A DNA stretch of 64,000 nucleotides, from contig NZ_JAOEGN010000004.1 of the NCBI RefSeq assembly GCF_025446935.1, forward strand, positions 1 to 64,000. The letters are read 5' to 3'. A program made the position numbers and the translations under genes. The notes beneath the pieces were generated by a model. The model had not been told where the DNA came from. It saw only the letters and a list, made by a program, of their open reading frames with translations, and ran no database searches. The DNA comes from Paracholeplasma vituli. Lineage in GTDB: Bacteria; Bacillota_I; Bacilli_A; Acholeplasmatales; UBA5453. Positions 4,818 through 41,738 of this stretch are shown here, one piece after another; positions within the stretch are counted from its first letter, which is position 1, and every line of letters begins with the position of its first letter.

Positions 4818-5192
4818 ATGAACGTCAGAGATAAACTAAGAAATATCGGATTCCGCTTAAATGAACTAACAATATATCTGGATATTAGCAGACCCACACT
4901 TTATAAATACTTAGAACTCTTTGAAAAGCAAGAGTTTGATAGTATTGACAAAAAGACGTATGACTTGTTCAAATATATAGAATCCACAAGAGGTATCACA
5001 AAGCCGATTCTAACAGACTATCTATTTAATCAGTATGTCAAAGAATCTAAAGAAGATAAGCCAGATGAGCTTATTGAAAAAATCTCCATTTTACTCAAGT
5101 CAAAAAAGAAACTAGACAAGTCTAAAATTGAGCTAATTAAGAGAATTATAGAAGTAGAAAACATAGATGACTTAGAGAAAGGGATGAACTAA
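4818..5192 (+). CDS. HTH DNA-binding protein, likely regulator of the OLD nuclease
   Basis: The 124-residue protein has an N-terminal helix-turn-helix: FRLNELTIYLDISRPTLYKYL (about residues 12-32) has the spacing of a recognition helix with the SRPTLYKY contact face. A second half rich in Lys, Glu, Ile and Leu is probably helical and may dimerise or bind a partner. AAGGGGAGG before ATG 4818 is a strong ribosome binding site. Its stop lies one base before the start of the nuclease gene, so the two are translated together. Two palindromes in its own promoter suggest that it represses the pair. It could instead be an antitoxin-like partner of the nuclease. No closer family is recognised. Confidence 0.75.
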   Translation: MNVRDKLRNIGFRLNELTIYLDISRPTLYKYLELFEKQEFDSIDKKTYDLFKYIESTRGITKPILTDYLFNQYVKESKEDKPDELIEKISILLKSKKKLDKSKIELIKRIIEVENIDDLEKGMN

Positions 5193-5193
5193 T

Positions 5194-7041
5194 ATGGGTC
5201 ACAGAGTCTTGCAAATTAAGAATTATAAGAATGTTGGTATTGATGAGAAACAAGAATTATTGCTTAACGCTAGTACAAGTAAGGGTGAATTTGGTGGATT
5301 GGTTATTTTGATTGGTCCAAACAATAGTGGTAAAACCAATGTGCTTTCTGCATTGACTGCTATGCGTGACCCTAATTTCGCACCATTTACAGCTGTTGAT
5401 TTACCTGATTTCGATAATGCACAGGGTGATTTAGAAGTTAGCTTAGTCATACATGAAGGAAAAGCAATGTATGGCTTTAACAAGAAATACTCCAATAAGA
5501 TACCTAAGAATCAATATTTTGTTAAGAAAGAAGATGGCGCCAATTTATTCTTCGATAATAAAGATATAACCGAATATGCGATGAATCTAGCTATGTCAAC
5601 TATTAGTAGGTTAATAAGTATGAAAAACTCACATTACCCTAATGATGAGAACTGGATTATAACTAGTGCAGAATGGAAAACTGTAAAGACTATCGATAAA
5701 AATAATATGCGGAATCATGCCACATTAATACACAGTATTCTCAATAAAGTTGTTAACTATCAAAGTTACGGGTACAATTTTTTTAGAAGTCATGTTGATG
5801 GTAGTCTAACAGATGAAAGAATAAAAGGATATATAAATGAGTTTGGCTTCAACAGTGAAAAGTTGGATGTATTGAGAAACTATGAAGAGAAAAACAATTT
5901 TAGTATTTTACCTAACGTAATTTTGTATTCACCTGTTAATTTCAAGAATTCAGATTTAACAATTCAACCTGGAAATATTGATACTTCAAACTTTTATAGA
6001 CACATCTTTAAAGCAATAGACTACGATATTGAAGAATTGAAGAATTGTTATACAAAAGTTAAAGAACAAAATATGCCTGGTCTTCTCAAGAAAACCGCAA
6101 AGACAATTAACATTAAATTAGAAGAGTTAAGCGAGCAGTTCAATAAGTTATTCCATTTGAACAAAAACAAATATACATTTGAAATCACACTTGAAACCAA
6201 TAGTATCTATCTAACGCTTATGCTAAATGAAACGCCTTTACACCTTGATAAACAATCGTTAGGTTTCAAATGGTTCTTTGAGTTCTATTTTACAATGGTT
6301 GCTAAATCGGGATTAAATCGTGGGGATATCATTGTAATGGATGAACCAGCTACTAATCTGCACGTTTCAGGTATTGTTGAACTACGTAAATTTATCAAAG
6401 AGTATGCTGAAAGAAATGAACTAACATTTGTACTAAGTACGCACAATCCATTCTTTATCGATGTGAACTATTTAGAAGAAGTTAGAGTCATAAATCGAGT
6501 TGGTGATCATTCAGTCATTCAAAGTAAATTCCATTTAGTAGAAGATGGTGAGAATGATGATACAGATGCGATTAGACCAATTAAAGATGCTTTAACTGTA
6601 CCAAGACATATATTAGTAGACCCAAATGTACCTACCATATATGTTGAGGGTATAACAGACTATCTTTATCTAACAGCATTTGCAAGTATCTTAAAGATAG
6701 ACAAGTTCCTATTTATGCCAATACAGGGCATAAGTAAAAAGAATCTTGTTGATACCATTCTGAAAATTGATAAGAATCCAATATTCTTAGTAGATGGTGA
6801 TAAACCAGCAATTCAGTTCAAAGAAATGGTATTGAAAAAAGCTTACAAAAATGTAGAGGTCATTTCACTAAAAGAAGTGGACGAAACATTCATGAATATT
6901 GAACAGTTGTTCGATGCAACCGATAGATTGGATAAATCATTTATCAATGCAGCAAACTTCAAGGCAAGAATTAAAAAAGGGAAGTTAAACAAAGTTACAA
7001 AAGACAATTTCGCGAAATTGTTTGACTATATTACCGTTTAA
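5194..7041 (+). CDS. OLD-family ATPase/TOPRIM nuclease
   Basis: The 615-residue protein has the overcoming-lysogenization-defect layout. An ABC/RecF-like ATPase comes first: Walker A GPNNSGKT at 41-48, Walker B IIVMDEPATNLH at 379-390, switch His417 in LSTHNPFF. A C-terminal TOPRIM nuclease follows, with the acidic residue in VEGITDY (Glu485) and LVDGDKPA with Asp534 and Asp536. A long poorly conserved insertion with a likely helical arm lies between Walker A and the signature region, as in OLD proteins. Enzymes of this class cut DNA and several act in phage defence (OLD of P2, GajA of Gabija, related AriA/AriB). Here no UvrD-like GajB partner follows; instead an HTH protein precedes it with a one-base gap. 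Defence by abortive infection is inference. Confidence 0.9.
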   Translation: MGHRVLQIKNYKNVGIDEKQELLLNASTSKGEFGGLVILIGPNNSGKTNVLSALTAMRDPNFAPFTAVDLPDFDNAQGDLEVSLVIHEGKAMYGFNKKYSNKIPKNQYFVKKEDGANLFFDNKDITEYAMNLAMSTISRLISMKNSHYPNDENWIITSAEWKTVKTIDKNNMRNHATLIHSILNKVVNYQSYGYNFFRSHVDGSLTDERIKGYINEFGFNSEKLDVLRNYEEKNNFSILPNVILYSPVNFKNSDLTIQPGNIDTSNFYRHIFKAIDYDIEELKNCYTKVKEQNMPGLLKKTAKTINIKLEELSEQFNKLFHLNKNKYTFEITLETNSIYLTLMLNETPLHLDKQSLGFKWFFEFYFTMVAKSGLNRGDIIVMDEPATNLHVSGIVELRKFIKEYAERNELTFVLSTHNPFFIDVNYLEEVRVINRVGDHSVIQSKFHLVEDGENDDTDAIRPIKDALTVPRHILVDPNVPTIYVEGITDYLYLTAFASILKIDKFLFMPIQGISKKNLVDTILKIDKNPIFLVDGDKPAIQFKEMVLKKAYKNVEVISLKEVDETFMNIEQLFDATDRLDKSFINAANFKARIKKGKLNKVTKDNFAKLFDYITV

Positions 7042-7533: not shown

Positions 7534-8883
7534 GTGTTATTTAGAAAAATTAAGAAGCAAATTGATGATTGGATTCTGAATGGGAATGACGCACTATTAA
7601 TCACAGGTGCTCGACAAGTTGGAAAGTCATTCATCATTCGTGAAACTTTAAAAGAGAAAGCGGAGGACTTCATTGAATTTAATTTTATTAAGCAAACCAA
7701 ATTACTAGAGATATTTAAATCCGCCATTGAAGAAGATGCCGACAAGTTCTTAATGGCTTTACGAGTTGCAGCGAATAAACAACTCAAAGACGGAACGGTA
7801 ATCTTTTTTGATGAAGTCCAAGAATGCAAAGAAATCGTTACAATCATAAAATTCCTAGTTGAACAAGGGAAGTTTAAGTATGTATTAAGTGGATCACTGC
7901 TCGGAGTAGAACTGGTGGATTTACGTTCCGCTCCCGTTGGCTATCTTACAACCATCGATATGTATCCAATGGATTTTGAAGAATTCTTAATCGCAAATGG
8001 ACTTGGAGATGATGTAATCAGTCATTTGAAACAATGTTACACGCAATTAACTCCTGTTGATGATTTTGTTCATGATAAAATCATTGAAGCATTCTACACG
8101 TATTTAATCGTTGGCGGAATGCCTGAAGCTGTTCAAACCTACCTTGATTCCAATGATTTTGTTCAAGTTTCAAAAGTTCATGTGAAAATTCAAAGGGAGT
8201 ATCGAAAAGACTTCACAAGATATGAACAGTCAAAGAAACTGAAACTCATTAAAACGTATGATTTAATTCCAGCTGAGTTGAACACCAAAAACAAACGTTA
8301 CATTTTTACTAACCTTGATAAGGAGCTTCGTTTTGATCGTTATGAAAACAGTTTTAATTGGTTAATTGATGCAGGTGTATCATTACCTGTTTATAACGTA
8401 ACAGAATTCGAAATTCCTTTGGAAGCAAGTAAAAAAAGTAATCTTTTTAAATTATTTCTTTCAGATGTTGGGATGTTAACTAGCGCATATGGGTCAGCGA
8501 CCATTTTAAGGCTTCTTGAAAAAGGTAAAGATATCAATTGTGGCTCAATGTTTGAAAATGCCATTGCACAAGAACTAACGGCTCACGGCTATAAAAATTA
8601 CTATTTCAACAGCAAAAAACATGGAGAAGTAGATTTTCTTATCGAACATAACAATGAACTGCTTCCGATCGAAGTAAAAAGTGGTAAGGATTATCAAAAG
8701 CATTCTGCTTTGTCCTATTTTATGTCAACACGTCAGTTTAATAGCGCAATCGTGCTATCTAATTTCAACGTTAGCGAAAAAGATAGAATCATTTATCTAC
8801 CGATATATATGATTATGTTCATCGAAAAGAATGAAGTGATTAAAAAGAGGGAACCGCTCAAACTGAGTGAATTATCACTTTAG
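7534..8883 (+). CDS. AAA ATPase with DUF4143 nuclease-like domain
   Basis: GAGGTGG at 7522-7528 and the promoter position make GTG 7534 the likely start, giving 449 residues; upstream in-frame codons would precede transcription. The N-terminal AAA_14 ATPase has Walker A GARQVGKS (about 25-32) and Walker B VIFFDEVQE (about 88-95). The C-terminal DUF4143 region carries EVDFLIEHNNELLPIEVKSG, the D-x(n)-EVK pattern of the PD-(D/E)XK nuclease fold. These proteins are widespread, often multicopy in genomes and poorly understood; transfer and defence or toxin-like roles have been suggested. The gene stands alone. It is bracketed on both sides by paired direct repeats, which suggests it moves or is controlled as a unit. 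Confidence 0.88.
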   Translation: MLFRKIKKQIDDWILNGNDALLITGARQVGKSFIIRETLKEKAEDFIEFNFIKQTKLLEIFKSAIEEDADKFLMALRVAANKQLKDGTVIFFDEVQECKEIVTIIKFLVEQGKFKYVLSGSLLGVELVDLRSAPVGYLTTIDMYPMDFEEFLIANGLGDDVISHLKQCYTQLTPVDDFVHDKIIEAFYTYLIVGGMPEAVQTYLDSNDFVQVSKVHVKIQREYRKDFTRYEQSKKLKLIKTYDLIPAELNTKNKRYIFTNLDKELRFDRYENSFNWLIDAGVSLPVYNVTEFEIPLEASKKSNLFKLFLSDVGMLTSAYGSATILRLLEKGKDINCGSMFENAIAQELTAHGYKNYYFNSKKHGEVDFLIEHNNELLPIEVKSGKDYQKHSALSYFMSTRQFNSAIVLSNFNVSEKDRIIYLPIYMIMFIEKNEVIKKREPLKLSELSL

Positions 8884-10046: not shown

Positions 10047-11672
<1,626 letters not shown>

Positions 11673-30637: not shown

Positions 30638-32716
30638 ATGAAGAAATGGCTTTTGTTGGGTTTTATTGTGATATTAGTGGGGTTTTTATCCATTATGATC
30701 GCAGGTTTAATCAAGAAAAAACCCATCGTTCAAATTCAAAATGGGATTACAACCTCTGCCACCATCCACGATGGGGATTTTTATATTTTTAATAACAATA
30801 AACCTAAAAAAATATTCATTAAAGGCGTTAATATTGGCGCGACTAAGCCAGGGTATTTCCCTGGTGAATTAGGCATTACAAAAGAAGATTACTTGAGATG
30901 GTTTGATCAAATCACTAAAATGAATGCGAATACCATTCGAGTCTATACCACGTTGAAACCAGCCTTTTATGATGCCTTATATGAATTCAATCTTGAAAGT
31001 GATGAAAAACTCTATGTCATGCATGGGGTTTGGGTCAATGAGGATCTAATGAAAGCATTGATGGACCCGTATGCAGAAGAGGAAAGGTTGTTAAATGAAT
31101 TCATATCCGATGGAAAAGATTTAGTCGATATTTTTCACGGTAATAAAACCTTAGAGAGTCGTCCTGGATTCGCAAATGGGGTTTACACGAAAGATGTTAG
31201 CCAATATATCATTGGCTGGATTTTAGGCGTTGAATGGGACCCTGAGTTTGTTAAAAATACCAATGAGCTCCATGAGGATATTCAAACTTTTGAAGGCACC
31301 TATTTACATACTCATAATGCTACTCCATTCGAAGTCTTTTTAGCAAGAGTGGGTGAAGCGATTTTAGAATATGAAGCGAATACTTATCAAAATACGAGAC
31401 CGTTATCTTTCACAAACTGGTTAACGACTGACCCACTTGATCACCCTAATGAACCAGACCCTAAAGAAGATCTGGTGAGTGTGAATGTCGAACATATCAA
31501 ACTATCCAAAAAAGCATTTGCTGGACAGTTCGCTTCCTATCACGTTTACCCTTATTATCCAGAGTTTATGAACTTTTCAGAAGAATTAGTAAAAGTATAT
31601 GACCCAGTTAATACCTATAAAGCCTATTTAAAAAAGCTAAACAAGTTTCACAGTATGCCTGTTTTGGTTGCTGAATTTGGCGTTCCAGCCTCACGTGGTA
31701 AAGCCCATGATGCACGTTATTCCGGATTTAATCAAGGACAGCATACCGAACAGCGTCAAGGTGAGATTTTAGCTTCAATGATTAAAGATATTTACGATAC
31801 AGGCAATATCGGAGCTCTCATCTTTGCGTGGCAAGATGAATGGTTCAAACGGACCTGGAATACAATGGATTTTGACCTCGAATGGCAACGTCCATTCTGG
31901 AGTAATGTAGAAACGAATGAACAGATGTTTGGTTTATTATCCTTTGAACCAGGCGAATCTTTAAAAATTAAACTAGATGGTAATGCAAGCGATTGGGATT
32001 TAATCCCTTATATAGGTGAAAACTTAAAAGCCACTCAAGATGAGCGTTATCTCTATTTATACATTGAAAAAAGAAGTCAAGAACCGTTATACATCGGCAT
32101 TGATACGATTCCTAATCAAGGAAACATGACGCATAGTAAAAAGAATATAAGCTTTAGTAGTGGTGCGGATTTCTTGATAACAATGGATCAGACCTCTAAA
32201 ATCGAAGTAGACCCATATTACGACGCATTCAGTCATTTGTATGGTGAAGTCTTAAAGATGGTAGATAAATCTCTAGGTATGGATACCATCAGTAGTGGTT
32301 TATTCACAGGGCTCTACCACGCTTTATCTAAAGCTTTAACCATTCCGATTACAAATGAATATATAGGCTTTTCAAGGTATGAGGCTGGATTATTAAGAAA
32401 AGGCAATTCGGACCCAAATTCAACAAGTTATGATTCCTTATCAGATTATTTTGATACGAATGAATTTGTTGAGATTAGAATCCCATATTTACTACTGAAT
32501 ATCATGGACCCATCGACCAAAACGAGAATGGCGAATTTTAAAGGCCAAACAAGCTTTACTGGTGAACATTTTGATTCAATTCAAATTGGCTTTGGGTATG
32601 CAGGCGAATCCGTTTTATTAAACCCGTATACATGGGAAAACTGGGGTATGCCTACTTATCATGAACGTCTTAAGCAGTCTTATTATATTGTTCAAAATAC
32701 ATTTACAAAATACTAA
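30638..32716 (+). CDS. Membrane-anchored glycoside-hydrolase-like protein
   Basis: The 692-residue protein has an N-terminal helix (about 5-25) that looks like an uncleaved anchor, so the rest faces outward. Residues about 45-430 read as a TIM-barrel of the clan-A glycosidase type. KGVNIGATKPG and NTIRVYTT lie at the first strands, GWILGVEWDPE is a possible acid/base Glu, and PVLVAEFGVP is a possible nucleophile Glu, followed by FAWQDEWFKRTW. The C-terminal 230 residues contain a beta-rich DOMON/CBM9-like segment (LDGNASDWDLIPYIGENLKA). Substrate is unknown; surface glycolipid or capsule glycan is possible. No gene on either side is clearly linked. Catalytic activity is inferred. Confidence 0.72.
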   Translation: MKKWLLLGFIVILVGFLSIMIAGLIKKKPIVQIQNGITTSATIHDGDFYIFNNNKPKKIFIKGVNIGATKPGYFPGELGITKEDYLRWFDQITKMNANTIRVYTTLKPAFYDALYEFNLESDEKLYVMHGVWVNEDLMKALMDPYAEEERLLNEFISDGKDLVDIFHGNKTLESRPGFANGVYTKDVSQYIIGWILGVEWDPEFVKNTNELHEDIQTFEGTYLHTHNATPFEVFLARVGEAILEYEANTYQNTRPLSFTNWLTTDPLDHPNEPDPKEDLVSVNVEHIKLSKKAFAGQFASYHVYPYYPEFMNFSEELVKVYDPVNTYKAYLKKLNKFHSMPVLVAEFGVPASRGKAHDARYSGFNQGQHTEQRQGEILASMIKDIYDTGNIGALIFAWQDEWFKRTWNTMDFDLEWQRPFWSNVETNEQMFGLLSFEPGESLKIKLDGNASDWDLIPYIGENLKATQDERYLYLYIEKRSQEPLYIGIDTIPNQGNMTHSKKNISFSSGADFLITMDQTSKIEVDPYYDAFSHLYGEVLKMVDKSLGMDTISSGLFTGLYHALSKALTIPITNEYIGFSRYEAGLLRKGNSDPNSTSYDSLSDYFDTNEFVEIRIPYLLLNIMDPSTKTRMANFKGQTSFTGEHFDSIQIGFGYAGESVLLNPYTWENWGMPTYHERLKQSYYIVQNTFTKY

Positions 32717-32727
32717 ATGCTAATTTC

Positions 32728-32756
32728 AAAAAGAGCCCTTGAAAAAGGCTCTTTTA
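32728..32756 (+). terminator. Rho-independent terminator
   Basis: AAAAGAGCC pairs with GGCTCTTTT around a nine-base loop. Confidence 0.85.
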
Positions 32757-32877
32757 ATTATACTTGAGGCAAAATGTTTTTATAAACTTATTAATAATTA
32801 ATGAAAATAATTAGGCAATATCTACTAAAAACTGTATAATGAAATTAACATAGTTTAATAGACTGGAGAGATTCATC

Positions 32878-33243
32878 ATGTGTATATTTTGTCAAATGGA
32901 TTCAAAACGTAAAATATATGAAAATAACCATGTTTACGCGATATTAGATGGGTTTCCTGTCAATAAAGGTCATACTTTAATCATCACAAAAAGACATGTC
33001 GGCAATTACTTTAGCTTAAACAGTGATGAACTAAAATCAATCGACGAAGCCCTTAAACATATGAAAAATCAATTAGATGATTTGTATCATCCTGATGGTT
33101 ATAACATCGGTATTAATAACGGAGAAGCAGCAGGTCAAACAGTCATGCATTTACATGTGCACTTAATACCTAGATATAAAGGTGACATGCCTAACCCTAG
33201 AGGTGGCGTTCGTGGTGTTATTCCTGGGAAACAAAAATACTAA
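32878..33243 (+). CDS. HIT-family nucleotide hydrolase or transferase
   Basis: The 121-residue protein has the histidine triad HLHVHL (His91, His93, His95) and an N-terminal CIFCQ half zinc site. The HINT branch of this superfamily removes AMP from adenylated compounds. TATAAT at 32835-32840 (TAGGCA, 17 bases upstream) and GGAGAG give it its own promoter and start. Its TAA overlaps the ATG of an HNH endonuclease gene (TAATG), an unusual neighbour for a HIT protein. Confidence 0.92.
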   Translation: MCIFCQMDSKRKIYENNHVYAILDGFPVNKGHTLIITKRHVGNYFSLNSDELKSIDEALKHMKNQLDDLYHPDGYNIGINNGEAAGQTVMHLHVHLIPRYKGDMPNPRGGVRGVIPGKQKY

Positions 33244-34202
33244 TGGATAACTATATCAAGAAATGGTTTGACATTTTAAATGGGATGTCAAACGATAACA
33301 CATACAAACTCGCTTGGGGTAGAGCCATCATTGAAGCAATTGTATTCAACGAAGGATCAATTATCGATGATCACTATCGTATCCATTTTGATAGGATCTC
33401 TATGCATATTCTAAAGTATTACTGGAATCAATCGTTCTTTTTCAATCTTAAACAAAGTGCTCGTCAATCAAATCCTCCAGTTGTTGTTCAACTTACCGAT
33501 ACATTAATCGATTATTACAAAAGCAAAGTTTCAAATATCCCTGTTTGGTTTGATAAGGTTAAATCGACGATTAACAATGAAATACTTCAAAATAAAGTTC
33601 ATCAAATCAGCACAGTTTTGACTCAAAATGTATCTTGGAGATTTTTGAAAATTGAAGATGAAACCGTCGAGATTTACGTCTTAAACAACAAAGAGCGCTA
33701 TATTGAACTTTCATTAGAAGATGTTGAGAGTATAAAATCATATCATGAAATTCTTATTCAATTATTTAACTATAAATGGGCTCAATTACTTGAAAAATAC
33801 AACATACAACCACGTATTGTATCAAAGATTAAAGGTTCGTCAGATAACCAATTAAAGCGTAATAATCTATCGAAATATAAAGATATATTATTATTACTGT
33901 ATAAAGACGAGATTAAAGATTTTTACACCGATGAAACCTTAAATTTTGAAGATATATCCATTGATCACTTTATTCCTTGGTCTTACATGTATTCAGATGA
34001 TTTATGGAATTTGGTCATAACATCCAAAAGCCGTAATAGTTCTAAATCAAACCGACCACCTACCAAGGAATACATTCAAAAACTTGAAGAACGCAATAGA
34101 AAATTATTAGAAGTTATTCAAGATAGTAATCATAAAGCAGAATTGATGGAGTCTTTAGAACACCATTACATTACTAAGTTTTATCAATCATTAATTTCAT
34201 AG
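33243..34202 (+). CDS. HNH endonuclease
   Basis: The 319-residue protein has about 235 N-terminal residues of unknown, mostly helical type. A C-terminal HNH domain follows: SIDHFIPWSY with Asp241-His242, LWNLV with Asn256, and SRNSSKSNRPP with Asn265. These are the metal and catalytic positions of the family. HNH enzymes of this form are common as restriction-like nucleases. It overlaps the HIT gene by one base and is followed 17 bases later by a second nuclease gene, making a three-gene operon. A role in cutting foreign DNA is inference. Confidence 0.85.
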   Translation: MDNYIKKWFDILNGMSNDNTYKLAWGRAIIEAIVFNEGSIIDDHYRIHFDRISMHILKYYWNQSFFFNLKQSARQSNPPVVVQLTDTLIDYYKSKVSNIPVWFDKVKSTINNEILQNKVHQISTVLTQNVSWRFLKIEDETVEIYVLNNKERYIELSLEDVESIKSYHEILIQLFNYKWAQLLEKYNIQPRIVSKIKGSSDNQLKRNNLSKYKDILLLLYKDEIKDFYTDETLNFEDISIDHFIPWSYMYSDDLWNLVITSKSRNSSKSNRPPTKEYIQKLEERNRKLLEVIQDSNHKAELMESLEHHYITKFYQSLIS

Positions 34203-34219
34203 CGAAAGGATATTTACAT

Positions 34220-34804
34220 ATGAAGGATTTAACAGGATGGAATTACATAGTATATACATTAATAAAGAATAATTTCAAGAATGAACCATTCACACTTGAC
34301 GAACTATATCGTTTTGAATCTTATTTTCAGAAAGTATATCCTGCAAATTTACATGTTAAAGATAAAATAAGGCAAATATTGCAAAATCTTCGTGACAAAG
34401 GATTAATTGAATTTCAATCACGTGGACAGTACCAGTTAATGCAAAAAATTAAAGAATCTGCAAAGGAAACATTCCCTCATGAGGTCGTGTATTTATTGTC
34501 TAATGAAAGTATACCTGGTTGGGTAAAGATTGGTCGAACTAAATCAATTGATGAGAGACTGTTAAAACTATACAATACTTCGGTACCATTGCCTTTTAGA
34601 GTAGTACAGTTAATTTCTACAACCAGCAAAGTAAATTCTACTATTCTTGAGAAAAGCATACATAATATCATTGATACAATTAACCCAGATTTAAGAAAAA
34701 ACACAGATGCCAGCAAAAGAGAATTCTTTAAACTGACACCTGAACAAGGTAAATATATATTTCAACTGGTATCTCAAATTATGGCTATTCCTCAAAATCT
34801 ATAA
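34220..34804 (+). CDS. DpnI-type winged helix fused to T5orf172/GIY-YIG nuclease domain
   Basis: The 194-residue protein has two parts. Residues about 5-75 (GWNYIVYTLIKNNF, FTLDELYRFESYFQKVYP, LHVKDKIRQILQNLRDKGLIEF) match the C-terminal winged helix of DpnI and Dam-replacing proteins, the module that recognises adenine-methylated GATC. Residues about 88-185 (VVYLLSNESIPGWVKIGRT, then ERLLKLY) match the T5orf172/MUG113 branch of the GIY-YIG nuclease superfamily. The known DpnI has its nuclease on the other side and of a different fold, so this is a different arrangement. A modification-dependent endonuclease is a reasonable hypothesis. AAAGG before the ATG is the start signal. Confidence 0.8.
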   Translation: MKDLTGWNYIVYTLIKNNFKNEPFTLDELYRFESYFQKVYPANLHVKDKIRQILQNLRDKGLIEFQSRGQYQLMQKIKESAKETFPHEVVYLLSNESIPGWVKIGRTKSIDERLLKLYNTSVPLPFRVVQLISTTSKVNSTILEKSIHNIIDTINPDLRKNTDASKREFFKLTPEQGKYIFQLVSQIMAIPQNL

Positions 34805-34816
34805 TCACATTTTGTA

Positions 34817-34840
34817 AAACGCTCTGGCTGAGCGTTTTTT
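34817..34840 (+). terminator. Terminator of the HIT-HNH-GIY operon
   Basis: AAACGCTC pairs with GAGCGTTT around a five-base loop, then T. A TATAAT at 34889-34894 then starts the helicase gene separately. Confidence 0.85.
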
Positions 34841-34944
34841 AATTCACTATACGCTTGAAATTGGATAGAGTTAGCCTCAAATTAATGCTATAATTAATTA
34901 TAAGAAATCATTTTTATCAATATATTACTTTTAGGAGCAATCAT

Positions 34945-37900
34945 ATGTTAGGTTTTATTGATATCGAGGTTCAAAAAAACAAAATCATATCGGATATTGG
35001 ATGCCTTAAAGAAAATGGGGATCAGATACATACTAAAAAAATTGACGAGTTTGTACGCTTTGCCAAAAAAGTCGATTATTTTTGTGGACATAATATCATA
35101 AAACACGATATGGTTTTTCTAGAAAAATACCTTCCGCGTAAGTTTATTCATCCCGACTACGCGATTGATACATTGTTTCTATCGGCGCTGTTATTTCCAG
35201 AAAAACCTTATCATAAACTTGTCAAAGACGATAAACTCGATATTGATGGTGAAAATAATCCGTTGAATGATGCTAAACATGCACAACTATTATTAATGGA
35301 TGAAATCGACGCATTTAGGAAATTAGAGGATGAATTAAAAGAGATATATTATAGATTGCTTAAAGATATACCCGGGTTCTCAGGTTTTTTTAAGTATATA
35401 AAATTTGGTCCTAAAGTTAAGAACATAGAAACATTGATTTTGACATATTTCAAAGATAGAATCTGTGGACATGTCAATTTAACCAATCTAATAAGGGAAT
35501 CTCCAATAGAGTTAGCTTATTGCTTAGCACTTAGTACAACCCATAACGATCAAGGCGCACTCATGCCACCGTGGATTATTTTGACCTACCCAAAAGTCGA
35601 GTCTATCATGAATAAGCTTAGAAATACATCCTGTGGGAACTGCCCATATTGTGAAATCAACTTAAGTCCAGTAGCTGCTCTTAAAAGATTTTTTGGATAC
35701 GACAAGTACAGAGAATATAATGACCAACCCTTACAAGAAATGGCAGTTAAGGCTGCGATGGATAGTGAGTCCTTAATTGCAGTTTTCCCTACAGGTGGAG
35801 GTAAATCCATAACCTACCAAATTCCTGCATTGGTTGCAAAAGAAACGACTAGAGGACTGACAGTTGTCATTTCGCCACTACAGTCGCTAATGAAAGACCA
35901 AGTCGATAATCTGGAAGAAAATTCGATTGTCTCAGCAGTTTATATCAATGGTCTCTTAGATCCAATTGAACGTGCTAAAGTCATCGAAAGAGTAGAAGAT
36001 GGCTCTGCTGCGATTTTATATATTGCTCCAGAATCCCTACGATCTAAAAAGATTGAGAAAATGCTGGTAAAACGTCAAATTACACGTTTTGTTATCGATG
36101 AGGCACACTGTTTTTCATCGTGGGGTCATGATTTTAGAGTAGACTATCTCTACATTGGAAAGTTTATTAGTCACATTCAAAAGATTAAAGGGAATCATGT
36201 TAGAATTCCTGTATCTTGTTTTACGGCAACAGCAAAGAAAAATGTGGTTGAAGACATCTTAGGTTATTTTAAGCGTCATCTCGATTTGGACATGAAAGTC
36301 TATCAAACTTCTTCGCGTAGGACTAATCTAGATTACAAAGTTATCAATGTTAGTGACGAAGAGGACAAATATAATAAACTTAGATTCATCATTGAACAGG
36401 AAAACTGTCCAACTATCATTTATGCGTCCCGGACAAAATTAGTAGATAGCATATATGAAAAACTAAAAAAAGACAATTTCGCTGTATCTAAGTTTCATGG
36501 AAAGATGGAAAAAGAAGATAAAGTTGCAGAACAAGACAAGTTCATGAAAGGGATTACGCCCATCATGGTCGCAACTAGTGCATTTGGTATGGGTGTGGAT
36601 AAGAAAGACATTGCTTGTGTTGTTCATTATCAAATCTCGAGTTCCTTAGAAGACTATGTCCAAGAATCTGGACGTGCAGGACGAGATTTCAGCATTCATG
36701 CACAATGCTATATTCTATACAACGAAAATGATTTAAATACACACTTCGAATTACTCAATCAAAGTAAACTGCATCTTAAAGAAATCCAACAAGTTTGGAA
36801 AGCGGTGAAAGATTTGACCAAAGTACGTCAAAGTGTTTCTCAATCTGCATTAGAAATTGCGCGTATTGCAGGATGGGACGAAAGCATATATGGTTTAGAA
36901 ACGCGAGTTACTACCGCCATATCCACATTGGAGGAAGCAGGTTATTTACTGCGAGGGCAAAACACACCACGTGTATTCGCGAACAGTATTCTATCCAAAA
37001 CAATGGCTGATGCAGTCACACAAATCGACGCCAGTGATCTCATCGCTATAGAAGAAAAGCCAACAGCCAAACGAATCATTAAACTCCTCATATCGAGCAA
37101 ACGTAAATCATTGGCTCAGGACGATGAAGCAGAATCTAGGGTAGACTATATTGCTGAGAGTTTAGGTATTGAAAAGCATTTAGTCATCAAAGCCATCAAT
37201 CAATTAAGAGACATTCAAATTTTAGCAGATGACAAAGATTTATCTGTGTTTTTAAAACGCTCAAAAACCCTAAACACCATTCAAAAAACACTGGATTTAT
37301 CCCTGAAAACGATGCGAATGTTGATTTCTTTAATCGATGATAAAACGCATTACTACAACATTAAACAGCTCAATGATGATGTCATCCAAAATGGCATCGA
37401 TACAAACTTAAAACAGGTACGTAATATAATCAATTATTTCGCAATTATGAAATGGATTGATCTCAAGAAAAATGGAAAAGATAACGTAAACATCCTTTAC
37501 ATAGAATCGTCTAATACAATTTTGGGCCGAATCGAACACTACGCTGTTATATCACATGTCATCATTGAATACCTCTATCAATTGATGCAAAACCAAAATA
37601 AATCGACAGAGTTTGTCTCTGTAGATTTCTCAATTGTTGAATTAAAGCGACTTTACGAAAAAGAAAAAGGCATCATGGATGACTCAGTCACCCTAGATGA
37701 CATAGAAGATGCCTTATACTTTATGCAACGCAGTGGCATTCTAACCATTGAAGGTGGTTTCATGGTAATTTACAGTCCACTCAATATTGAACGCATAGAA
37801 ATGAATCCATCAAAACAATTTACGAAACAAGACTATGATAAGCTGGATACGTTCTATAAAAACAAACTTGAACAGGTACATGTGGTTGGTGAGTATGCTA

Positions 37901-39738
37901 CCAAAATGATTGAAAATTATCAATCTGCGTTAATCTTTGTTGACGATTATTTCCAATACGAGTTCAATGATTTTTTAAGTAAATACTTTAAAGGCAACCG
38001 TAAAAAAGAAATAGAACGCAGCATGACTCCGGCCAAATTTAATGCAATTTTTGGGGCTTTATCTCCTGAACAATCTGAAATTGTCCGTGACAATGAACAC
38101 GATCGCATTGTGGTTGCAGCAGGTCCTGGTAGTGGAAAAACACGTTTATTGGTTCATAAACTCGCATCCATCTTGTATACTGAAGATATTCGTACAGAGC
38201 AGTTACTCATGCTTACATTCTCTCGTGCAGCAGTTAGTGAATTCAAACAAAGACTGGTCAATCTCATTGGAGAGGCTGCTTATTTTATTGATATTAAAAC
38301 ATTCCATTCATTTTGTTTTGATATTTTAGGACGCATTGGTAATCTTGAAGAAACTAAAGATAGTGTTAAGAAAGCAGTAGAATTAATACGGTCAGGCGAT
38401 GTCGATAATTCCAAAATCACGAAAATGATACTTGTCATCGATGAGGCCCAAGATATGGTTCAAGATGAATTTGATCTGATTATGGAAATCATTAAACACA
38501 ATGACAATTTACGTGTGATCGCAGTCGGAGATGATGATCAAAACATCTATGAATTTAGAGGATCTAACTCGAAGTATCTATTAGAATTGTTGGATAATGG
38601 TCAAAAACTCTATCAACTTTTAACCAATTATCGAAGTAAGCAAAATTTAGTCGAATTTGCCAATCAATATCTTTCAAATATACCCAATCGAATCAAAAAT
38701 GAACCGATTCATTCAAATACAGTGGAACTAGGACAAATAGAGGTTATCAGACATACAACTAATGAAAATCTCATTGTTGGAGTTGTTAATCAAGTAATTG
38801 CTGACAATTTACCAGGAAAAACATGCATAGTGACGTGGACTAACGAACAGGCTCTATATGCGCTAGGTCTATTAAATTTGCACCAGATTAATGCGACATT
38901 AATTCAAGATAATGACAGAATCAAAATTTATCAAATGGTAGAAATGCGCACTTTTATGAGCTATTTTGATGATGACAACTCACGTTTCATGATATCCAAT
39001 GAAATTTGGAAGAATGCCATTATAAGATTCAGCGATGAGTTCAAAAACACTTCGAATTATGCCATTTTCATTAAAATGTTCAGAAACTTTAGAAGCGAGT
39101 ATCCTCAAGCATTCTATAAGTCGGATTTGGATAACTTTATCTACGAATCGAATCTATCGGATTTCATTGAGGAATCCCCAATATTCATCTCAACATTCCA
39201 CAAAACCAAGGGTAAAGAATTCGACAATGTCTACATATTAGATGATAGTAATCGATTAAATGATGAACAAAAACGCGCTTTATATGTAGGCATTACCAGA
39301 GCTCGTCAATATCTAATCATTCATAGTCTAAATAATCTCTTCAGTTATTACAAAATGAAGAATCTTACCCACAAAACGGATGACAACATTTACCAAAAAC
39401 CAGAACGTTTGATTTATCAAGTCTCCTATGAAGATGTCGCATTAGGGTATTTTAAATTGGTTCAACCTGCAATCCTCAAACTCAAATCTGGCGATGAGTT
39501 AACGATTCAAGAGGATGTATTGAAAAAAGAGGATCGGAAGGTCCTTAAGTTCTCAAAAAAATATAGTGATCAAATATCTGAATTACTCAAATCAGGGTAT
39601 GTATTATCTAATGCTACAGTGAAATACTTGGTGTACTGGAAAGATAAGGATGAAAATCAAGAATATTTGATTGTATTACCAGAATTGCAATTTAACTGGA
39701 GTCATAGTGTTACAGTTGAGACTACAGTAGAAGAGTGA
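34945..39738 (+). CDS. Giant exonuclease-like / RecQ / UvrD double helicase
   Basis: The 1,597-residue protein has, in order: a DEDD-exonuclease-like domain (about 1-120; FIDIE with Asp6 and Glu8, CGHNIIKHD, PLNDAKHAQLL); a CGNCPYC cluster (Cys230, 233, 236); and a RecQ-type SF2 helicase (Walker A PTGGGKS about 282-288, DEAHC at 385-389, QESGRAGRD about 573-581). Long winged-helix-like linkers follow (about 620-950). Then comes a UvrD-type SF1 helicase (AGPGSGKT about 1059-1066, IDEAQD about 1165-1170, GDDDQNIYEFRGS about 1195-1207, TFHKTKGKEFDN, YVGITRARQYL). Both motors keep their key residues. RecQ-SF1 fusions of this size occur sporadically in bacteria with no settled role. AGGAG precedes the ATG. 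A membrane protein follows after eight bases. Confidence 0.88.
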   Translation: MLGFIDIEVQKNKIISDIGCLKENGDQIHTKKIDEFVRFAKKVDYFCGHNIIKHDMVFLEKYLPRKFIHPDYAIDTLFLSALLFPEKPYHKLVKDDKLDIDGENNPLNDAKHAQLLLMDEIDAFRKLEDELKEIYYRLLKDIPGFSGFFKYIKFGPKVKNIETLILTYFKDRICGHVNLTNLIRESPIELAYCLALSTTHNDQGALMPPWIILTYPKVESIMNKLRNTSCGNCPYCEINLSPVAALKRFFGYDKYREYNDQPLQEMAVKAAMDSESLIAVFPTGGGKSITYQIPALVAKETTRGLTVVISPLQSLMKDQVDNLEENSIVSAVYINGLLDPIERAKVIERVEDGSAAILYIAPESLRSKKIEKMLVKRQITRFVIDEAHCFSSWGHDFRVDYLYIGKFISHIQKIKGNHVRIPVSCFTATAKKNVVEDILGYFKRHLDLDMKVYQTSSRRTNLDYKVINVSDEEDKYNKLRFIIEQENCPTIIYASRTKLVDSIYEKLKKDNFAVSKFHGKMEKEDKVAEQDKFMKGITPIMVATSAFGMGVDKKDIACVVHYQISSSLEDYVQESGRAGRDFSIHAQCYILYNENDLNTHFELLNQSKLHLKEIQQVWKAVKDLTKVRQSVSQSALEIARIAGWDESIYGLETRVTTAISTLEEAGYLLRGQNTPRVFANSILSKTMADAVTQIDASDLIAIEEKPTAKRIIKLLISSKRKSLAQDDEAESRVDYIAESLGIEKHLVIKAINQLRDIQILADDKDLSVFLKRSKTLNTIQKTLDLSLKTMRMLISLIDDKTHYYNIKQLNDDVIQNGIDTNLKQVRNIINYFAIMKWIDLKKNGKDNVNILYIESSNTILGRIEHYAVISHVIIEYLYQLMQNQNKSTEFVSVDFSIVELKRLYEKEKGIMDDSVTLDDIEDALYFMQRSGILTIEGGFMVIYSPLNIERIEMNPSKQFTKQDYDKLDTFYKNKLEQVHVVGEYATKMIENYQSALIFVDDYFQYEFNDFLSKYFKGNRKKEIERSMTPAKFNAIFGALSPEQSEIVRDNEHDRIVVAAGPGSGKTRLLVHKLASILYTEDIRTEQLLMLTFSRAAVSEFKQRLVNLIGEAAYFIDIKTFHSFCFDILGRIGNLEETKDSVKKAVELIRSGDVDNSKITKMILVIDEAQDMVQDEFDLIMEIIKHNDNLRVIAVGDDDQNIYEFRGSNSKYLLELLDNGQKLYQLLTNYRSKQNLVEFANQYLSNIPNRIKNEPIHSNTVELGQIEVIRHTTNENLIVGVVNQVIADNLPGKTCIVTWTNEQALYALGLLNLHQINATLIQDNDRIKIYQMVEMRTFMSYFDDDNSRFMISNEIWKNAIIRFSDEFKNTSNYAIFIKMFRNFRSEYPQAFYKSDLDNFIYESNLSDFIEESPIFISTFHKTKGKEFDNVYILDDSNRLNDEQKRALYVGITRARQYLIIHSLNNLFSYYKMKNLTHKTDDNIYQKPERLIYQVSYEDVALGYFKLVQPAILKLKSGDELTIQEDVLKKEDRKVLKFSKKYSDQISELLKSGYVLSNATVKYLVYWKDKDENQEYLIVLPELQFNWSHSVTVETTVEE

Positions 39739-41114: not shown

Positions 41115-41738
41115 CTATTTTTTTGTAGTACACCAGAAATTATTGAACTGATTTAATGTTTCATACCTAACGATATCTTTATCAAAATCAATTTGAAGTA
41201 GTTTGAATATGGACTTTAAATCTTCATTTGCTGTGACTTTATAAAAGCCTGTCGCGAGCTCAAACGCTTGTGCACTATTCATCGCTTCAATTATTCGCCC
41301 TGCACTATACACCCAGTTCGTTTTATGTTGAAGTACTCTAATCAGTACTAAAGCGAGAAAACATGTCAAAAAGTGTGCTTCAATATGCTCCTCAAGTCTT
41401 ACATAAATAGGTTTTGCGTTGAACTCTGTTTTCGTAACCTTGAAACAGTCTTCGATTTTATATAATTGTCCGTAATATCCAATGATTTCTTCATCACTCA
41501 TTTGGGTTTCACTCGTCACTATCACATTGATTCCGTCAAACTGTTCATCGAATGTAACTTTATCTTCATCAATCGTGATTAAGGGATTAAAGGGTTTTAG
41601 TTCTCCCGTCTTTTTGTCCTTATACTGGATTTCTAAGTATTTCTTCCCACCCTTTTTTGTCGTTTGTCTAAATAGTTCAGGATGAGTCAGTTTTCGCGCA
41701 TAATCTAGGGCGCTGCACTGCCCCATAAGTTGTTCCAA
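41115..41738 (-). pseudogene. C-terminal part of an IS4/IS1634-type DDE transposase
   Basis: The fragment (207 codons from a TTG, no ribosome binding site) contains YYGQLYKIEDCFKVTKTEF, the Y-x(n)-E-x(n)-K element carrying the third catalytic Glu. It continues with IYVRLEEHIEAHFLTCFLALVLIR, both typical of IS4-like DDE_Tnp_1 enzymes. The first two Asp and the N-terminal half are missing. The frame stays open upstream to about 41841 through repeat sequence, showing that the head was replaced. The element cannot move by itself. Confidence 0.85.

Follow-up and report, generated by a model that had tools for sequence, protein, structure and literature searches.

Does joining a DpnI-type methylation reader to a different nuclease make a new kind of modification-dependent enzyme, and what would such an enzyme do in its host? 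The question arises from one gene in the 64,000-nucleotide stretch of DNA that we analyzed (hereafter, the window), in which the first-pass annotation had proposed a DpnI-type winged helix joined to a GIY-YIG-like nuclease domain. The open reading frame (ORF) is intact, with exactly the coordinates that the annotation gave, and the gene and its two domains are as follows.

34220 to 34804, + strand: gene for the predicted wH-GIY-YIG endonuclease, 194 amino acids, with an ATG start and an AAAGGA ribosome-binding-like site upstream
34235 to 34435, + strand: DpnI_C winged-helix reader, residues 6 to 72, assigned from Pfam, a PDB sequence match and a fold match
34484 to 34765, + strand: T5orf172 / GIY-YIG nuclease domain, residues 89 to 182, assigned from Pfam and alignment A1

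Both domains scored far above chance against Pfam. DpnI_C (PF17726) matched residues 6 to 72 with 76.6 bits (E = 1.6e-21; curated cutoff of 23 bits), and T5orf172 (PF10544) matched residues 89 to 182 with 51.0 bits (E = 2.3e-13; curated cutoff of 20 bits). The related nuclease model MUG113 matched residues 102 to 178 with 41.6 bits (curated cutoff of 22.3 bits). When the PDB was searched by sequence using phmmer, DpnI (4esj) was the sole significant match, again at residues 6 to 72 (E = 9.9e-13). The first half of the protein also matched the PADLOC model of a methyl-directed type II enzyme. PDC-S57, a T5orf172 candidate defense family in PADLOC, has the nuclease domain in common with the window protein, but the T5orf172 and PDC-S57 models cover the nuclease half only (E = 1.7e-25 for PDC-S57), leaving the DpnI_C reader outside the match. 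The order of winged helix followed by GIY-YIG in one chain is kept in other genomes too. As in DpnI, the winged helix is a G6mATC-type reader, with 41–44% identity over ~70 residues. Unlike DpnI, the window protein has its reader at the N-terminus, where just residues 1 to 5 precede it; the Pfam and PDB searches found no PD-(D/E)XK catalytic domain, and the cut is expected outside GATC rather than inside it.

We compared the predicted structure with DpnI using an AlphaFold2 model built on eight homologous sequences. The mean pLDDT was 72.6, indicating middling confidence, with lower values in the GIY-YIG half and a low-confidence linker at residues 76 to 86. The winged helix was present in the model, whose N-terminal half was closest in fold to DpnI entry 4kyw (Z = 9.8, 2.1 Å over 69 residues, 44% identity). 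A second DpnI entry, 4esj, gave a Z score of 9.7, and DpnI occupied Foldseek ranks 1 to 3. The GIY-YIG nuclease Slx1 appeared at Foldseek rank 8 with a probability of 0.90 but an E value of 0.09, a match that is weak on its own. The winged helix is therefore well backed by fold, whereas the nuclease half is assigned mainly from Pfam.

The residues expected to carry recognition and catalysis are largely kept. The recognition helix HVKDKIRQ (residues 45 to 52) is nearly identical to the aligned helix of DpnI, HIKEKIRQ, with K49 and R51 in the positions of DpnI K229 and R231. In DpnI, the α-helix of the winged helix contacts the methyl groups, and the K229A and R231A variants have impaired activity. 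The annotation had also pointed to the aromatic methyl pocket of DpnI as a place to look. That part of the comparison does not carry over: the pocket (Leu129, Arg135, and Trp138) sits in the catalytic domain of DpnI, not in its winged helix, and is absent here, and it is the reader-helix residues that are retained. In the nuclease half, the signature Y91, K103-I104-G105, R113, E144, and H148 is invariant across the eight homologs of alignment A1, with the second GIY-YIG tyrosine replaced by lysine (KIG) throughout the set. Pfam, the PDB sequence match, the structure model and residue conservation thus agree on a DpnI-type winged helix and a GIY-YIG-like nuclease in one ORF.

The first-pass annotation went further, suggesting that a reader with a different cutter would be a new kind of modification-dependent enzyme. 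This was not borne out, because such enzymes are already known from Acholeplasma. Helbrecht et al. (2024; PMC11037411) screened winged-helix fusions, named the wH-GIY-YIG class, and expressed and purified Ahi29725I and Apa233I, which in the presence of Mg2+ cut Dam+ but not Dam− DNA. Both enzymes cleave outside G6mATC, Ahi29725I at N1-23. Fully methylated DNA is preferred by Ahi29725I, and Apa233I takes hemimethylated DNA as well, a difference that those authors left unexplained. Our full-text literature search for the term wH-GIY-YIG returned no paper besides PMC11037411. The window gene is a further member of this published family.

We then related the window protein to the two tested enzymes. 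The published masses are 24.62 kDa for Ahi29725I and 24.17 kDa for Apa233I; we computed 24.14 kDa for the protein of genome G016 and 23.69 kDa for that of genome G021. Because each lies the same 0.48 kDa below the published value, the G016 protein is probably Ahi29725I and the G021 protein probably Apa233I. The window protein shares 64–67% identity with the former (64% using MAFFT) and about 51–54% with the latter. It resembles both in its N-terminal winged helix and C-terminal GIY-YIG domain, length class, type of reader helix, nuclease signature, and Acholeplasma-type host. It differs in its species and in its neighbors, which are a HIT-HNH pair upstream and a helicase downstream, and it is an enzyme predicted from sequence.

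In our judgment, the gene very probably encodes a stand-alone type IV wH-GIY-YIG endonuclease that reads G6mATC, cuts outside the site, and spares a host with no GATC methylase. Judged by the close relatives that have been assayed, the window enzyme most likely depends on methylation and cuts outside the site. The winged helix would put its recognition helix into the major groove at G6mATC and would sense both methyl groups together, without base flipping. A flexible linker (residues about 75 to 87) may then let the GIY-YIG domain reach a variable short distance beyond the site, where this domain, presumably of weak sequence specificity, would cleave with Mg2+. Host DNA would escape because the cell lacks an adenine methylase for GATC. 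With host DNA spared, the target would be phage or plasmid DNA arriving from Dam-type hosts, and from this we infer a role in defense.

The host genome (1.86 Mb, 99.99% complete) contains one DpnI_C protein, that of the window. Genome-wide searches found neither a D12 (Dam-type) methylase nor DpnII, which fits the expectation for a stand-alone type IV enzyme. One N6/N4 DNA methylase is present; it is prophage-like, carries a ParB domain, and has no assigned site. A second, weak methylase match is a protein resembling an RNA methyltransferase. Across the order, near-full-length copies of the enzyme occur in 10 of 160 genomes, and seven of the ten copies are unlinked to DpnII. No D12 match was found in the seven genomes with an unlinked copy, compared with 70 of the 160 genomes overall (P = 0.016, in a post hoc comparison that is uncorrected for kinship and includes some incomplete genomes). 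Co-occurrence with DpnII among the 160 genomes was not significant (3/10 versus 16/150, P = 0.10).

GATC is the most depleted of the 16 four-base palindromes in the 64-kb window (135 seen, 312 expected, ratio of 0.43). We considered taking this depletion as evidence for the enzyme and dropped it, since ratios of 0.34–0.83 are common across the order, also in genomes without the enzyme (samples of 5–64 kb).

Could the winged helix direct cutting to a mark or context other than fully methylated G6mATC, for instance 6mA within SATS sites, hemimethylated GATC, or a different modified base? The published work gives this some footing, as hypermethylation enhances cutting and only ~10% of winged-helix fusions carry the full 6mA/GATC motif (PMC11037411). 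The reader helices of the family also differ among members, and the presence of the prophage-like N6/N4 methylase in the host is a further point in favor. Nevertheless, the reader helix of the window protein is nearly that of DpnI, and the closest tested relative is G6mATC-dependent. We therefore regard recognition of another mark as improbable.

The neighborhood of the gene raises a different question, namely whether the enzyme acts alone. The adjoining genes are as follows.

32878 to 33243, + strand: HIT-domain protein gene, overlapping the start of the HNH gene
33243 to 34202, + strand: HNH endonuclease gene (HNH_4, Cas9-like HNH), directly upstream of the wH-GIY-YIG gene with a 17-bp gap
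34945 to 39738, + strand: downstream gene for a 1,597-amino-acid fusion of an N-terminal DEDD-exonuclease-like part (identified by eye) with RecQ and UvrD helicases

A terminator scan of positions 32600 to 35200 found no site; by eye, a hairpin followed by a run of T can be made out at about 34817 to 34841, and we gave it no weight. The close packing of the HIT, HNH, and wH-GIY-YIG genes on one strand might indicate that the enzyme is a component of a defense system with HIT and HNH, and perhaps with the DEDD-RecQ-UvrD helicase, that works only in complex. The order HIT-HNH-wH-GIY-YIG is kept at two further loci (L002 and L003, the latter apparently a contig of genome G004), where a zinc-ribbon/Adenine_glyco-like gene is additionally inserted ahead of the helicase gene. 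The HIT-HNH pair is also present in G005, where only a winged helix follows. We rejected a conserved HIT-HNH-wH-GIY-YIG-helicase system, however, because the order, including the adjacent HNH gene, is kept in close relatives only. Elsewhere the ortholog has no such HNH beside it, its neighbors being SF1 helicases, genes of DpnII cassettes, or unrelated genes; it comes after an SF1 helicase gene at L005 and L006 and in G424, and the others lie near different genes. Conversely, genome G036 has adjoining HNH and helicase genes without wH-GIY-YIG. Moreover, the purified relatives are active on their own (PMC11037411). An obligate multi-gene complex is accordingly very unlikely, and we read the HNH-helicase interval as a slot with varying cargo among defense-type genes, in which the enzyme is self-sufficient. 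Least credible of all is a nuclease-dead, methyl-dependent DNA-binding regulator: the YIG tyrosine is indeed a lysine, but the remaining signature residues are invariant and the KIG form occurs also in the proteins that are probably the active enzymes Ahi29725I and Apa233I.

A stand-alone endonuclease thus remains the preferred reading, and the window gene adds an intact and probably active ortholog to a characterized family, in a variable slot among defense-type genes. A search of viral contigs with the family alignment yielded no relative. In phages and plasmids, no match reached 80% coverage of the query, and the nuclease half accounted for most of the matches.

Several observations concern the cargo of this slot and its surroundings. 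The Adenine_glyco (methyladenine glycosylase) zinc-ribbon gene directly follows wH-GIY-YIG at 10580 to 11470 of L003 and at 7619 to 8509 of L002. In G005 (L071, 4243 to 6400), HIT-HNH is followed by a divergent winged helix of 74–76 amino acids without a nuclease, then by AIPR, and then by the helicase. This lone winged helix matches DpnI_C with an E value of 5.5e-24 and may be a 6mA-type reader that stands by itself, or else a remnant. The HNH gene of G036 directly precedes a DEDD-RecQ-UvrD-type helicase, with about 49% identity to the window counterpart. In the window itself, an OLD-family AAA/TOPRIM nuclease-like protein was recognized by eye at 5194 to 7041, after a small gene at 4818 to 5192. 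A short transposase-like ORF, also recognized by eye and probably an insertion sequence remnant, lies downstream of the helicase region at 41115 to 41738 on the − strand.

Members of the family do not always live in hosts free of GATC methylation: in three related genomes the enzyme occurs together with a GATC methylase, a finding that we count against the stand-alone proposal. In G013 (A. equifetale, L009/L045), G017 (L038), and G021 (L039), the wH-GIY-YIG gene stands at the end of a DpnII cassette whose genes, all on the same strand, encode a D12 methylase, a DpnA-like methylase, DpnII, a small ORF of 82–88 amino acids, and then wH-GIY-YIG, with a resolvase beyond. The G013 copy contains an internal TAG, and the D12 gene of that genome is interrupted too. 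The arrangement looks like a self-conflict. Should G021 be A. palmae, Apa233I, an enzyme shown to cut G6mATC, would adjoin a GATC methylase. Fewer than 100 potential conflicts were reported by Helbrecht et al., who raised expression control as a possibility (PMC11037411).

The cassette-linked copies differ from the others in the reader helix. All three have glutamate at the position of DpnI K227 (HIEAK, YIEEK, and HIEDK), and the G017 protein also lacks the RDK that follows. The unlinked copies mostly read HIKDK or HVKDK in this region, with HIQEK at L004. In the tree, the cassette-linked copies cluster with moderate support (0.76). We offer, as a tentative and on balance unlikely explanation, that in this branch, with its changed helix, the enzyme has become the second of two blades in a GATC system that works from both sides. 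Its role there might be to attack hemimethylated or half-modified DNA, for instance, or to act as a suicide switch, and the window copy would be the stand-alone form. The juxtaposition of a GATC methylase and a cutter of methylated GATC in three genomes raises the question of how these hosts avoid cutting themselves. The same cassette arrangement raises the question of whether it explains the acceptance of hemimethylated DNA by Apa233I, unlike Ahi29725I. In a fourth genome, G009 (L040, 2216 to 2851), a T5orf172 protein without a winged helix follows a DpnII cassette that carries an additional DpnA-like methylase.
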